From: Pseudisothecium myosuroides | Lineage: Eukaryota; Streptophyta; Bryopsida; Hypnales; Lembophyllaceae | Direction of reading: 5' to 3' | Length of the DNA: 64,000 nt | NCBI GenBank assembly: GCA_951799445.1 | Contig: OX637293.1 | Coordinates: 12,028,001-12,092,000, forward strand | Shown here: piece after piece, positions 16,925 through 25,626 of the stretch | Layout of the letters: every line of letters starts with the position of its first letter | How positions within the stretch are numbered: the stretch's first letter is position 1 | Program-made: the position numbers and the translations under genes | Notes under the pieces: generated by a model | Databases searched by the model: none | Seen by the model: the letters and a program-made list of their open reading frames with translations, nothing else | Told to the model about the DNA's origin: nothing

Positions 16925-17466
16925 TTAACACCTAAAGGACCACTTGTCCTTTAGGAGGATAAATTGGATTTTGGGCTACGTGCGGTCTCAATTTTTGTCC
17001 TAATTTTTTGAAAATTTTCTTGAAGATAGAAAAATTGATTAGCTTTGTGGAAATATAATTTTTTTTTCAATTGGTGCCTTGAGAACAAGAGTTATGCCCA
17101 AATAAGCTCAAAAAAGTGGAGAGGGGGGGAATGGGGTAGCAAAATTTAAATTCAAAAATTTAAATTTCAAAAAAATAAATTCTCATAGATTATACTTTTG
17201 TCTACATGGAAAGCTTTGATTCATTCCATTTGGATTTGTTATGATATTTATGGACAATCTTGTTTTTTGGGCAATTAGAGCATCTTCTTGAAAAAATAAC
17301 TTGTAGGATTCTAAGTGCAATTTTTACAATTTAAAAAAAGAAGTTCCACATGGTTTAGTTTACTTGCTAGAACAATCTCACCATCAGAATTAGTGTGTTT
17401 TAATTCCATCTCAGAGAATTAATGATTTAAATTCTCTTTCTATCTTGTACCTACTTCTACTTAATA
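16925..17466 (-). mobile_element. TTAA-type element, left part, split by the 8.15-kb transposon
   Basis: Begins TTAACACCTAAAGGACCACT and follows, in reverse orientation, the copy at 39618-40557 (for example TTGATTAGCTTTGTGGAAAT and AATAAGCTCAAAA blocks). It stops at ACTTAATA where the large transposon begins. The rest of the same element resumes at 25627. Confidence 0.85.
17459..17466. repeat. 8-bp target-site duplication, left copy
   Basis: ACTTAATA directly precedes the transposon end CTTGGGGGG. The same octamer follows the other transposon end at 25619-25626. Confidence 0.9.
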
Positions 17467-17481
17467 CTTGGGGGGTGCACT
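17467..17481. repeat. Transposon terminal inverted repeat, left
   Basis: CTTGGGGGGTGCACT; partner at 25604-25618. Consensus CTYGGRGGGKGCAYT. Confidence 0.8.
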
Positions 17482-17665
17482 CCCTCTTATAATTTGCATA
17501 CACCTGCGATAATGACCTATTTAAAGGGGGGCTATTTACCTTGTGAAATAGAATATAAGGCATGGTATTTTTCAAAATAAAGGTAAATCCTTGTATTTTA
17601 GGGTACCCTACTGGTATTTATAATTTGTTCATGGAGTCATTTTAAAATACCCTATATTACTTACA

Positions 17666-18028
17666 CCCCATTTTTTTTCTTTGGCCCTTGTTTTTTTCTT
17701 TATTCCCCATTTTTTTCCTTATCCCCCATTTTTATCTTTATTCTCCATTTTTTTTCCCTATCCCCCATTTTTATCTTTATTCCCCATTTTTTTTCCTTAT
17801 CCCCCATTTTCTTCTTTATTCCCCATTTTTTTCCTTATCCCCCATTTTTTTTTTATTCCCCATTTTTTTTCCTTATCCCCCATTTTTTTCTTTATTCCCC
17901 ATTTTTTTCCTTATCCCCCATTGTTTTCCATTATTCCCCATTTTTTTCCTTATCCCCCATTGTTTCTTTATTCCCCATTTTTTTTCCTTATCCCCCATTG
18001 TTTTCATTATACTCCATTTTTTTCCTTG
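17666..18028 (+). repeat. Pyrimidine-rich minisatellite
   Basis: About ten units of 33-37 bp, each made of two similar halves: TTTATTCCCCATTTTTTTCC and TTATCCCCCATTTTT. The strand asymmetry is extreme (almost no G). Open frames across it in two registers are artefacts of the repeat. It lies about 200 bp inside the left end of the transposon. Confidence 0.9.
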
Positions 18029-18621
18029 TATCCCTTAGTTGTAGAAGTGTGCAATACTAATAGACATGCTAAAATCCCATGAAGAATAAAAGAGTAAACC
18101 CAACTCAAACAAAGGGCAACATAAGCATGAATTGTACTGCGTGACAATATAAACAAAAACAAACAAATATAGTGTTTGTGTTGAAGAACACAATGGAATA
18201 TGACAAAGTCATTGGAAGTTCTATTTACATATGAAGTTCTAAGGTTTAGGAACAGATTCAACACTTCCGTATACTATACGAAATTGCATAAAAAACTGCA
18301 ACTTCCTAACATCCCAGACATGCAAAAACAAAACACAGGGACAGTCTAGAAATCTGCAGCTGGCAGTACTCAGATCCACCGCAATGTAATAGTCATTGTA
18401 AAATCTGCGATTACAAAGAATGGAGTCAGATAGTATAGTAATCCTCATCATTTGGGACTGAAGCACAAGAAGCACAAAACAAGTGGGAAGAATACACTTT
18501 GAAGACAAATTCCAGCAACTTGTAAGCAAAGTAGGGTCAGCATTTGTGCATGGACTCACCACTGCCCAACACGGTTTATCGGAGAGATCCACCTGTTTGG
18601 AGCTGCCTCCAAGTGCCCATG

Positions 18622-19600
18622 CTATGTCCCAGTGAGCTGCACATTTTCAAAGTCTTCAAGGATGGCACGTAAATCGGCCAACTGCACGTCTGAAAGCATC
18701 TCCAGTGGCTGCAGACGGAGGTCATCATCTAGTGTCGAAGTTGGCAGCTCCCATGAGTTGGCAAACAATAGATAGTTGCGGTCAAAACTTGTCTTCACGA
18801 GCTCTTCCTCCGAACACCATGGCCTATACAATCTTGAGAAGTCCCACCTCGCAAGCCGGTGTGCTGCTCCTTCAACGGTCTGCTCCAAGGCCTCCTCCCA
18901 ACTTCGACAAACCTGCCTCACAGAATTAAAGTCGGCCATGCTTGTTGGCATTCTTCCAATTGCAGTTTCATGGTAGAAGTCAGCCCAGCCACAATGTGTG
19001 AGGTGCAACCCGTCCGCAAAGGGCATGAGCATAGCATCCCGCAAAGGAATCTCCATCGATGCTAGAGTTTGAAGCGGACTTCTTGTCAAGACAGCTTCCA
19101 AAGGTAACAACTTCAGCAACGAAACCAACTGAGACAGGAAAGAACACAGAGAAAGAAAACTAATGAAGGCGGCCAAGCACAGTAGTGGCTCAGTTTCAAG
19201 GACAAATTCATGCAACCTACACTGAGGATCCGCCCCATGACAAACTCAAAATACAGCCAGTAGACCAGAAACCGCAACAGTGAAACTACAGAGAAGAAAT
19301 GACATACAACCACAAAACCCGGAACTCCATTACCAACACAAACTAGTGTCCTAAAGATGGTAGCAACAAGCAATTTTCATAGCAAAGCCAGAACATCAAG
19401 TCATGCGAATTGTATCATCGGAATTTTGGAAAGGAACAGCTTGGAATGCACATTCACCACGTCTGAGCAAAATTAAAACATCGACCTACAAGTGAGGAAC
19501 AGCGCAAAGGAAATAACATACCGAAACAGGAAAAACCACGGCAGACTGAACCACAATTTTTGAACAGCTGTTTCCGCTCTCCGCTTGTCCTCTCACAACT
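18622..19600 (-). CDS. Second transposon gene, unknown protein with weak F-box-like stretch
   Basis: The minus strand is open from 19215 to the stop at 18622. A good acceptor (CTGTCTCAG) at 19128/19127 suggests that the last exon is 18622-19127, about 168 codons. A preceding exon at 19522-19600 (acceptor TTGTGCAG, donor GTATGT) joins in frame. The predicted protein has a leucine-rich start (LVSLLKLLPLEAV), then ADGLHLTHCGWADFY, SVRQVCRSWEEALEQT, which recalls the end of an F-box, WDFSRLYRPWCSEEEL and an acidic tail LADLRAILEDFENVQL. It lies wholly inside the transposon and runs in the same direction as the transposase, downstream of it. It may be an accessory protein or a captured host gene. 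The first exon and start are not known. Confidence 0.4.
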
Positions 19601-19893
19601 CTGCACAATAAGCTCAAAAAACAAACCTTCAAGTGGCACTGCTTCAAGCACATCATGTAGGAACACATTGATAAATGATAATTGCAGAAATAATTTCCCC
19701 AAAAAATAATTGCAGAAATGACACAAAGTAATTTGAACCTCAGTCTCAGATCACTGTACGGTACAACCACATGTGGTTTAATTGCAGTTTCAAAAAATGA
19801 ACCATACCTGAGATTTGGAAAATATTTGCACAACCACAATTTCTAATCTCCCTAATGTTCCCACATGTGTCAGAAAGTACAGTTCACAAACTC

Positions 19894-22800
19894 TCACTTT
19901 TGATAAGAAACAAACTCATGCAAAGAATGTGCGTCTATTGGGTCCAAGGTGTAAATCTTGCTACTTGATGAATAATCCAATGAAACTGTAGATATGATGG
20001 AATCGACGTCCACCCATATACAATCACTTTCGTCATACTTGTACTTGTTTAGGCCTGGTTGTTTTTTGAACCAGTGCAAATACACCATTGCACTTGGCAA
20101 AACGGTTCCTTTGTTTCCATTTTGCACAGCTCGTTTCATGAGGTCGATGGGTTGCCTGCACAACCCCCATTTTGTGCCAACCTTCACCCTCATCTTTTGA
20201 ACCCTGCCTACACAAAACAATCCATTATCATTCCCAAAGTTCACAGAAGAAGGCCATCCACGTTTTCGTTTTTGACCTCCCCTTCCAGTGGAAGACCTGC
20301 CATTACTTCGGCAATCCTTGAAGTACACATCCACATCTGATCCCAAACCCAACAACATAGACGTGGTTGATGAAGCAGCAGCAACATAGTCATCTGAATT
20401 GTTAAAGTAGATTGAATTCTTCATCCTAGTTAGCCTATCTTTTGACAAGTGAAGATTTCCATTCAATTGACTAACGAGGGTGGATTTATAAATTGAGTGA
20501 CCCTCATAAGTCACCACTGGGACGACTTTCACAGGAGTGCTACCAGTGGGCAATTGCACTTCGTGGTCATTCATGACTTCCATGATAACATTGCATGTCT
20601 CCTCTTGTAACACTTCCAAACCTGTGTCACTGTCATCCCCTATGTCGTCTTCAAGCACATCTTGCGGGTTAGAAGTACTCCCTGTCTCTGGACCACCACC
20701 TTCACAGCTTCGAAGTTTGGCTCGCTCACATTCTCCATCACCAATGTTTTCAGGTTGTGGTGTGGCTGGTGGCTGGTATGCCAAATGCGATGAGTCCTTC
20801 TTCTCAATCTTCCATGGGGTCAAAAACCACGCCTTTTTAGCTGCTGTTGTAGAGTTTGAAGGAGCCATATTCAAGACTCACAGCATACCTTGGGCCTCCT
20901 TCAAGCCTTTTTTCAAGGCCAGAATCACGTCACAATCAGTGGAAACCAGCGAGTAGTCAAACAAATTTGCTATGGTTTCATTTTCTTGCAACAGATGCAA
21001 GGCTGCCCAAATATTCTCAACCTTGTTGTGAACTCGACCAAATTGGAGTCCGTTCTCACCATATTCCACACTAGACAATCGATTCAACGTGTTAGCTATA
21101 TTAACAAGCTCATGGAAATCATACAATCGCTCCATACCATTCATGCCGCCTACTTTCGGAAAAAAAATCTCACAACTATCACTTCCTGTCAGATGGAGAG
21201 GAATCGGCAAATTTGGATAATTGTCACGGAAATGTTTAACAAGAAGAACAACAAAGTGACAAGAGAGCTAGACGTCCAGAAAGCACTGTTGACTAACATA
21301 GTTCTCCTTTGGCTCAAATCGGACCGAGTTGTTTCCAACTGTGTGGTTCCCGTGAATGAACCAAAGCTTCCACAGTCTGAAAAAAAAGGAAACCTTCGCT
21401 GCAAGAACTATTCTACTGCGCACATCAAGCACAGGTGAAGCAAAAATGTCAATGTAGTCTCCACAAATACACAAATACAATTTTGTACCAAGTGTGCGCT
21501 CACAGTGTCCTTCGTTACAGTTTCTCATTGCTGCCAAACAGGTCTGTGTTTTCCGTTGACAAATGCGCTGCACAAATGCCCAATTCTGCCGGTCCTTGCG
21601 CTAGACGTCCTCCAATTTCAGGCCGTGCTCATCAACGGTGTACTTATTGTAAAGCATTCTGAGGTGAGTGAGAAATGCTCCGTCCTCCCTAAGCTGCAAA
21701 GTCTTCACATGAGAGTCAAGCGGATTCATAAGCTTCTTACCATTGTGAATCCAATCTTGATCATGGAGTCCACTGCAATTGCCACCTTTGTCCACAGAAC
21801 CCGTTAGTAACCAGCCCTCCCACTCTATGCTGAAGCGGACCCCCTCACGACTCTTGTAGTCAATAAGCATCAACTATCGCCATCTACTATCTCCGTCACT
21901 TGCGTGACCAACAATGGGTCCAACAACATCTCTGCATTCTTTATTCCAGAGCTTCTCGAATCTCGATCCTGAGCCACTGCTGCCTCATCCACAAAGAGTC
22001 AAAGCAATTGCAAGTACATGTCACAACAAGCACAAGTCGCGGCAAACTTTCATGCAAAGGATTCACCATCACAATTCTAGTAAATTCTCTTCTCCGATTA
22101 GTTCGGAAAGCATCCCATTAGAGGAGATCTGGAATTCTGGAAGACCGTTTCAAGGCTGTTCCCAATGCTGGGAACCAGCCCCTGCTGTCAGAAAATAAAT
22201 AAATAAATAAAAATTAAAAAAATAAATAAATTCTTAAAATGTTAAAAAAACAATAAAAATGATGTGGCAGTCACTTGACCACGTCGGACTGGCCATGCGG
22301 CAGCGTTTCAGCTATCCTGCAAAGTTCCCACAGTCCGGGTACTCGCGGGCTCTTAGAAGCCCAAATCTCCTCTAATGAAAATTTTAGCATATCCTCCGTC
22401 ACCTGTGCCAACAACTTCCTGGTAGTCAGACAGACAAATATGGTCATCTTTATGGCCACAAAATCCAACCAGAGTATCAGACCGGTGATCCCAAGCAATC
22501 CGCCCCTTGACTTTGGTCTCATCTTCTGCAAGAATTATGGGAACAGGGCCACTAATTCCGTGCACAGCCTTAGCTTTTTTGTAAATCTCTGCCACAATCC
22601 TAAAGATTTCAATGTATTCTCCAGGCACAAACTGCACACCCTTGTGGTTCTCACGCTTTATAGTACTGTAATTGGGACCACTGTAATTCAAAGAAAACAA
22701 ATCACAAATACGTCTACCTCTGTACATTTTCATGGCTTGGGAAAAAACTTTTGAATTGGTAGACCATCTAATCCCCTGTTTCTTTCGGTTTAAATTAGAA

Positions 22801-24588
22801 GCTACGTCACAGAGGAAATCCCAAAGTGCAGGTTTCCCCCCCATGGCACCAGTTTTGTGAGCAGCAATAATATCTGAACAGAACTTGAAAACATTATACT
22901 CAGAAGATGCCCGCTGAGCAGACTCTTTTAGCGTTGGTCAACTCATCTTCAGTTGCGCCACTCGGGTCTTTGCCGACCAATGCAACAATTTCTCCTTTTT
23001 CAGCTTCTTCGCTAATACTCGATTATGTGACGTCAGCTCGAAAATAGACAGGTAACCAACTCTACGACCAGGTGTGGTACCCCTGGATCCACGTTTTTCT
23101 AGAGAACGTTCCTCGCAAACCACGCGCAGTCTAAAATCTATTTCTCCCACAATGCTAGAGCACATCGAGCAAGTGAAGCCTGGAAATGGTTCTGCAGAGT
23201 AAGAGAAACGTTTGCACTGATGATGCCTAAACGCCCCTTTGACAATGACAACACTTTCTCCACAAAGCTTGTACATGAGGTTTAGGGTACCAAACTTTTC
23301 CAGGGTGAGGATTGAATAGAAGTTCATCAACAGCGTAAGACTTACCCCCGTACACACAAGTTGGGCCTCTTAAACCCCAGCACGTCCTAAGAGAAATTCC
23401 ATTTTTGTCGCATGTTATAAACTCACCTTGGGCATGCTTGAAGAAAGAATGCAGTCCTGATTGGCTTGTCTCACTGCCAGATGCTGAAGGTCTTGCTAGT
23501 CTACCTCTTTTGCCAGTAGATAGTGGCGTGCCTTTCGAATTGGACAGCTTCAAGTCTTCAATTGCCTTTGCATGAACCACGCCGTGGATATGGTTCATCA
23601 AGTTTGCCTCCAGATTTCGCTTCAAAGGGCACAGCTGGAATATCTCCTTTGGACATACGAGGCATTTGACTTTGAACCAAAATGACCTCATCACAGGCTC
23701 TTCAGGGTCTCCAATAACTTCGAAGGTCAGCTTCTGTGAATCCAGGGATTGATTCACAATGGACACAATTTCAACACCCTCGTCCACCATCTTCTTGTGG
23801 TCAGCTGAAGTGATGATTACGGGATTGCTCCTCGTAGTGCCAGTTTGTGGGTGATTTGCCAAGTCCACTCCTTTCTTCCGATAGTAATTTCTTACGTGAC
23901 CCGCACTGTTCAAGTGACTCTTTCGGAAATTGGAGAATAAGTTTGTCACCGTGTTCTTTGTGTGTTTGCCAGTATTTCCACCAATCAGGGCACGGCACTC
24001 AAGACAGAACATTTTGACGACGCCAATACCGTCCTGGTCCCAAGAACGGAGCTCCCAGTCGTGGTCCTCCATCGAGACTTGCTTCAAATCCTCACGAAGT
24101 TTGTCCTCACCTTTTTTGTACCACTGCAAGACATCCTTTGGCACAAGGGTGGACAGCATTCCGCCAACCTCTATGTTTGAGGCCTCCTCCAAAGTTGCAA
24201 CGTTGGCAGTTGAGGCGGGATCTGGAACTCCGTGCTCGGTGTTTGATGGTTCAGGTGGATGCGGTGGACCCTCGTCGGCAGTCCCTACGGATTCAATGCA
24301 AAATGTGTAGTCCCCAAGCTTTGCACATTTTCCACCATAGTCCTCCTCAGTTTGAGCTGGAATCAGGTGTACAGATTCCCGAACCGAATTGAGGGCTTCA
24401 AACTCGCAGTCAATCCAGTAGCCTTCTTCAACGTCCCAGAATTGGAAAGGGCCCAACCACTTAAAAACATTCAGTTGCTCCAATCTGTTCCGCAAAGTGA
24501 GCAGGGAGGCATCCTCTTCGGTGTCCATGGGACTGAGGAGCTTTGGCGGGTCACCTTCTTGCTTCCGGAAGTATATCTTAATCCTCAT
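19894..24588 (-). pseudogene. Very large DDE-type transposase, degraded
   Basis: Start taken at ATG 24588 (MRIKIYFRKQEG); stop at 19894. With the MITE at 22116-22377 removed, the frame would encode about 1480 residues. Order: N-terminal region with two C-x2-C...H...H zinc-finger-like motifs (CLEC...SHLNSAGH; CLVC...NHIHGVVH); a Cys-rich FTCSMCSS block; FCSDIIAAHKTGAMGGKPAL; first acidic motif LAEDETKVKGR (Asp codon 22521-22523); IVGHASDGDSR (21889-21903); LTGSDSCEIFFPKVGG (Glu codon 21169-21171). These give a D-D-E order typical of RNase-H-fold transposases; assignment of the three residues is inference. Then a long C-terminal domain with basic GRGGQKRKRG. Damage: frameshift about 23230-23290; TGA 22938-22940; MITE insertion; one-base frameshift near 21945-21970; TAG 21874-21876, 21601-21603 and 21268-21270; TGA 20878-20880. 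I do not recognise a named superfamily. Confidence 0.75.
22116..22377. mobile_element. CATTAG-type MITE, copy 1, inside the transposase gene
   Basis: Ends CATTAGAGGAGATCTGG and, on the minus strand, CATTAGAGGAGATTTGG. The interior has GATGTGGCAGTCACTTGACC and ACGTCGGAC. Deleting exactly this segment restores an open frame reading AKILDAFRTNRR through the seam. No target duplication is visible. Confidence 0.85.
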
Positions 24589-25603
24589 CTTCCTAGACGG
24601 TGGATGAGTGTCGTCTCTTGCCCTGAACCCTAGACCGAAGTTCAACACTGCACAACAAGCATGAATTAATCCTTCTACCGTTTTACCCTAAACACTAATG
24701 TGAAGTCCGCTTCGGAAACAACTTAGCAAGGCGAACCCTCAGGCTTGAGTGGTGGTGGACAACCCCAACGAGGCCGAAAAAAATAACAATATGACAAATT
24801 CGGCAGCAACGTCGACTAACAACAAAACCCTAAACCCTAGAAAGCAAGATTTGAAATGGTAGTGGAGTGCGGAGTTCCAAGCCAAAGAAGTTGTTAAATA
24901 CTTACCTGTAGCATGCAAAACTCTAAGAGAACTGGCAGTAACCCACGATTGAGGAAGACACGTTCACAATCCACGTTGAAAACCAAGATTTCCTCCGCCG
25001 TCTGAAACCTCTTCCACTATGTGAATACCACCGATGTTTGAACTCAAATGTCTTCTTCTACCACAAATAGGGCACTAGAAATCAGAAACATTCCTGAAAC
25101 GCCGAAATGAATCATCACCGGTGCGGATCACTCCAGAGCAGCGACAATGCAGCAACAATCCTAGACCAGTTTCGAACGAGCCAGCGACCTCGGTGCATTT
25201 TCCCACCCCCGCCTTGTCAACGGAATTTCAAACGTGTACATTCAATAATGCACTTGGGATACCTTACTTTGGATACTGCATTGGATAAGTAACCCACGCT
25301 GAAATTCAGGCCATTTGGTAAAGTATTGGATCCACAATACATCCATAATTTAATAGAAATCAAATTTCTCATCCCCAGTCCCTATTTTAGAGCCCATATA
25401 CCCTACTATCCCATTTAGTATATGCTATTTTATATGTACTATTTACATAATTTTATGGTATTATACCCAACCCTATATTACATATAAACATGTTTTACAC
25501 TTTTGAAGCACCCTATAATACATATAATTTGTTTACAAATTTTACCTCCACTGAATATATTAGACCCTATATTTTATTGCACATAGTTCCTACGTTTTTC
25601 GCC

Positions 25604-25618
25604 AATGCCCCCTCCGAG
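25604..25618. repeat. Transposon terminal inverted repeat, right
   Basis: AATGCCCCCTCCGAG on the plus strand, the imperfect complement of 17467-17481. Confidence 0.8.
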
Positions 25619-25626
25619 ACTTAATA
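25619..25626. repeat. 8-bp target-site duplication, right copy
   Basis: ACTTAATA, identical to 17459-17466. Confidence 0.9.

Follow-up and report, generated by a model that had tools for sequence, protein, structure and literature searches.

P elements are a textbook transposon system, known mainly from animals. According to one account of that system (PMC7776569), plants lack the THAP domain that the P transposase carries, and a literal-term search of listings of open-licence literature returned no description of a land-plant P-type transposon. We analysed a 64,000-nucleotide stretch of the moss Pseudisothecium myosuroides (contig OX637293.1, positions 12,028,001 to 12,092,000; hereafter the window), which carries a transposon with inverted ends, flanking target-site duplications and a long transposase gene. 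We conclude that it is very probably a cut-and-paste DNA transposon of P type, representing a deep lineage without a detected THAP domain that lies within the P superfamily or is directly sister to it. The transposase is predicted from a structure model to fold like that of the fruit-fly P element, which assigns it to a branch of the P group that has received little recognition and includes proteins from liverworts, a fern and animals. An earlier note on this DNA had proposed an undescribed system with a possible distant link to P/THAP-like transposases. The link is strengthened by the predicted P-type fold, although a THAP domain was not detected. The novelty has to be narrowed: Repbase lists P, like Novosib, as a superfamily (PMC4455052), so the kind of element is already known, but the lineage is set apart by its missing THAP domain, by the extra domains it carries and by occurring in land plants.

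The boundaries drawn in the earlier note, imperfect 15-bp inverted ends with ACTTAATA on either side, proved exact on re-reading, the ends (CTTGGGGGGTGCACT and CTCGGAGGGGGCATT) being identical at 11 of 15 positions. Searches for further copies covered the host genome of 388 Mb in 222 contigs, in which the window lies on contig C7. The first 201 bp and the last 251 bp of the element each gave at least 40 scored matches among 78 candidates. Left and right ends were then paired on distance to assemble 20 further copies, to which the window copy was added (n=21). An exact flanking repeat was found in 15 of the 21 copies, the window copy included (8 bp in nine, 9 bp in six); among the six copies lacking one, L040 agrees at 7 of 8 positions. 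In several copies with a 9-bp repeat the ninth base may equally belong to the end, which makes 8 bp the best-fitting duplication length. When left flanks were joined to wrong right flanks as a control, 8 bp was reached in 2 of 420 pairings; the ends and duplications of the copies exceed chance. Duplications of 8 bp and short inverted ends are features of the P superfamily. Five of the further copies (L039-L043) are 7.6-8.5 kb long and contain transposase sequence. The other 15 share the same ends and are short (0.6-3.5 kb), and no transposase match was found at 1e-5 in the six of them that were searched (L044-L049); they presumably moved in trans.

The six minus-strand segments of the transposase gene are a single reading frame and not exons, since the relative P0001 is one uninterrupted protein of 1,479 amino acids (78% identical over the searched core). 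The D-D-E residues picked in AEDET, SDGDSR and GSDSCE were well chosen: in an alignment of 99 relatives, all three are kept in 86 of the 90 that are ungapped at those sites. The C/DxxH motif between D2 and E, expected of the P superfamily in the broad sense, is present in 97 of the 99, and also occurs in hAT, MuDR, Kolobok and Dada (PMC9587614). In the predicted structure of a relative, P0003, D333 lies on a strand, D452 at a strand end and E694 on a helix. This model and the relatives' alignment give an RNase H core bearing all three acidic catalytic residues, which the earlier note had named as a check. The prediction further comprises a helix-turn-helix (HTH), a split RNase H domain and a helical insertion domain, as in a P-type fold.

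We compared these features with those of described systems. The Drosophila P element (6p5a, 6pe2) resembles the present family in its D-D-E residues, in its 8-bp duplications and in the fold, which is predicted to correspond from the HTH to the RNase H domain and to include a helical insertion separating D2 from E. Unlike P, the present transposase is about 1,480 amino acids long, with an additional N-terminal region and a BAH-like C-terminal barrel; the D2-E spacing is 242 here against 228 in P, and the element has imperfect 15-bp ends rather than 31-bp ends. The zebrafish P-like element/THAP9, likened here by description only (PMC7776569), also has short inverted ends (13 bp), 8-bp duplications and short deleted copies, but it is an animal element with a THAP domain. 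Transib/RAG1 and hAT (Hermes) share the RNase H fold, likewise interrupted after D2 and before E by an insertion domain.

Several observations weigh against the assignment to P. The structure model is that of P0003 and not of the broken window protein, and the D1-D2 spacing is 119 in the present family against 73 in P. The P element transposase was not found in the PDB by sequence profiles at E<=10, and among the structure matches listed hAT is the sole other superfamily with 8-bp duplications and a solved structure. The N-terminal THAP domain that marks animal P/THAP9 elements in the narrow sense was absent from the 15 families to which 22 members gave matches at E<=1, from the window pieces and from the 25 families listed of 34 in a further scan; a very diverged THAP domain may still be present. 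Eight GTP-binding residues are named in the description of the P element (K385, K400, V401, S409, F443, D444, N447 and D528; PMC7776569). Only one of them, D528, could be placed, the other seven not being mappable without the P sequence; its position, three residues before the catalytic Glu, holds Asp in 89 of the 96 relatives that have no gap there. The Repbase rule for superfamily membership is similarity in iterated searches converging at E<0.005 (PMC4455052). Bearing on this rule, PF21787 was matched at E = 0.0022 among the 22 members scanned and PF12017 scored above cut-off only in relative P0107, against the PDB profile searches that missed the P element.

The earlier note's view that the transposase fits no superfamily it could name agrees with our profile searches, in which no Pfam model reached its cut-off on the window pieces. 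This result, the failure of sequence profiles to find the P element, the longer protein with different N- and C-termini and the other D1-D2 spacing would all suit a separate superfamily that retains cut-and-paste transposition and a P-like fold, either a sister to P or a poorly documented existing one that duplicates 8 bp of target, as Novosib does. We regard this as unlikely. A KDZ or hAT element diverged beyond recognition is far less probable still and already disfavoured. The insertion-domain architecture is common to hAT; no match to the hAT dimerisation or hAT transposase models was obtained. The transposase model of KDZ (Zisupton, Kyakuja, Dileera), which we take to be PF18758 and to be present in the Pfam copy used, was not among the Pfam families matched, and the structure matches listed include none from KDZ. 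Duplications of 8 bp are also made by hAT and Zisupton, according to one report (PMC12730594). Homologues in distant eukaryotes and a chromatin-reader-like domain might instead indicate a domesticated host gene family, although common ends with differing flanking duplications at many sites, short copies of 0.6-3.5 kb sharing those ends and stops in every long copy refute this for the present element, and we give it almost no credence; some relatives elsewhere could be domesticated.

Relatives of the transposase occur in distant eukaryotes. With the core as query, 126 proteins matched at E<=0.001, of which 120 were listed, and a profile search found at least 103. Named hosts among the matches listed are Riccia, Calypogeia, Adiantum, Amphiura and Mytilus, whose proteins belong to the same family and share about 30-50% of residues across the aligned core; they are likened by protein alone and are labelled only hypothetical, unnamed or uncharacterized. 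No Pfam model scores above cut-off on the transposase core in members close to the window, and such genes therefore stay "hypothetical protein" in genomes. In the topology, without support values, of a midpoint-rooted FastTree tree of 94 of the 99 aligned proteins (five were left out for low core coverage, and the Mytilus proteins lie outside the alignment), the four named land-plant proteins kept (two from Riccia, one each from Calypogeia and Adiantum) form one clade. Amphiura falls in a separate clade, and apart from both stands a third set, which is more divergent and includes no named host.

The transposon had been called complete, which is true of its length but not of its function. The transposase frame of the window copy is interrupted by stop codons at five places (22938, 21874, 21601, 21268 and 20878), shifts near 23260 and again near 21962, and is split by a nested insertion of 262 bp. 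The insertion, with ends CATTAGAGGAGAT and ATCTCCTCTAATG, gave at least 40 scored matches among 858 first-look candidates in the genome; it is missing from L039, a copy 91-95% identical to the window copy, and comparison with the empty site there revealed no target-site duplication. A search for intact copies found copies with the same termini, but all six long ones carry 3 to 7 stops in the transposase; the window copy and the five others examined are dead. Polarisable changes are C>T or G>A in 43 of 61 cases in the window copy and in 21 of 38 in L039, as the decay of methylated DNA would produce. The stop at residue 1022 (P0001 numbering; window 21268-21270) is common to these two copies, which carry different flanking duplications; either the mutation arose independently in each, or a copy that already had the stop was mobilised in trans. 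Between subfamilies, the nonsynonymous divergence (dN) of the transposase is 0.20-0.23, and the synonymous divergence (dS) has reached saturation in the majority of pairs; the ratio dN/dS was computable in 3 of 15 pairs (0.05, 0.35 and 0.45, the two high values being close pairs), a pattern that fits selection during spread and decay since.

The element has a second gene, open reading frame 2 (ORF2), whose protein is 44-89% identical across all five other long copies, with dN/dS of 0.14-0.38 in the 6 of 15 pairs with estimable dS. It has few relatives in the protein database, and its F-box-like match is weak (E 0.07, below cut-off). Just inside the left end lies a 38/39-bp array, with two CCCCATTTTTTTCCTTAT-like 19-bp halves per unit. 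The features are collected in the table below. Among eight contig ends fetched, three (both ends of C1 and one of C7) consist of TTTAGGG, the common telomere repeat of plants, in long arrays; three others begin and end in N, and two have no array.

Table. Positions in the window of the transposon and its parts.
Feature	Position	Strand	Basis or remark
Whole transposon	17467..25618	- (both genes on minus strand)	Ends and duplication read directly; ends common to 20 further copies
Target-site duplication ACTTAATA, left	17459..17466	.	Read from sequence
Target-site duplication ACTTAATA, right	25619..25626	.	Read from sequence
Left inverted end, 15 bp	17467..17481	+	11/15 match to right end
Right inverted end, 15 bp	25604..25618	-	11/15 match to left end
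Array of 38/39-bp (2 x 19) unit near left end	17691..18027	.	Tandem Repeats Finder (TRF) and repeat search
ORF2, 144 aa, conserved second gene	18625..19056	-	Kept in L039-L043; weak F-box-like match
Transposase pseudogene, one broken frame	19897..24588	-	tblastn of P0001; stops
C-terminal 327 aa of transposase, predicted BAH-like barrel	19897..20877	-	
Catalytic E codon (GSDSCE)	21169..21171	-	E in 96/96 ungapped relatives
DxxH motif (DWIH), between D2 and E	21745..21756	-	D and H together in 97/99 relatives
Catalytic D2 codon (SDGDSR)	21895..21897	-	D in 95/99 relatives
Nested insertion like a miniature inverted-repeat transposable element (MITE)	22116..22377	.	Breaks transposase frame; not original to element; missing from L039
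Catalytic D1 codon (AEDET)	22521..22523	-	D in 93/93 ungapped relatives

The N-terminus and HTH of the transposase would bind the G-rich ends. By analogy with the P element (PMC7776569), the RNase H domain of transposase bound to both ends would cut the element out, and strand joining at target sites 8 bp apart followed by repair would leave the 8-bp duplications. These duplications and the short copies are observed in this genome; the chemical steps, the oligomeric state and a role for GTP, a possible cofactor, would follow the P model. The BAH-like barrel may, more speculatively, read chromatin and guide insertion. For the divergent relatives P0095 and P0097, the precomputed database annotation lists PF21743 (PTM/DIR17-like Tudor), another hint of chromatin-reader domains in the family. 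A bolder proposal, which we consider doubtful, is that a P-like lineage extends over land plants and animals as a so far undescribed chromatin-targeted branch, in which the BAH-like reader would guide insertion to marked nucleosomes and the F-box-like ORF2 of the plant lineage would act on host proteins.

The presence in a plant of a P-type transposase in which no THAP domain was detected, and which has kin in liverworts, a fern and animals, suggests that the core of HTH, RNase H and insertion domain predates the THAP version and is more widely distributed, or that it moved between distant hosts. It also makes testable the question of whether the sole known GTP-dependent transposition mechanism reaches plants.
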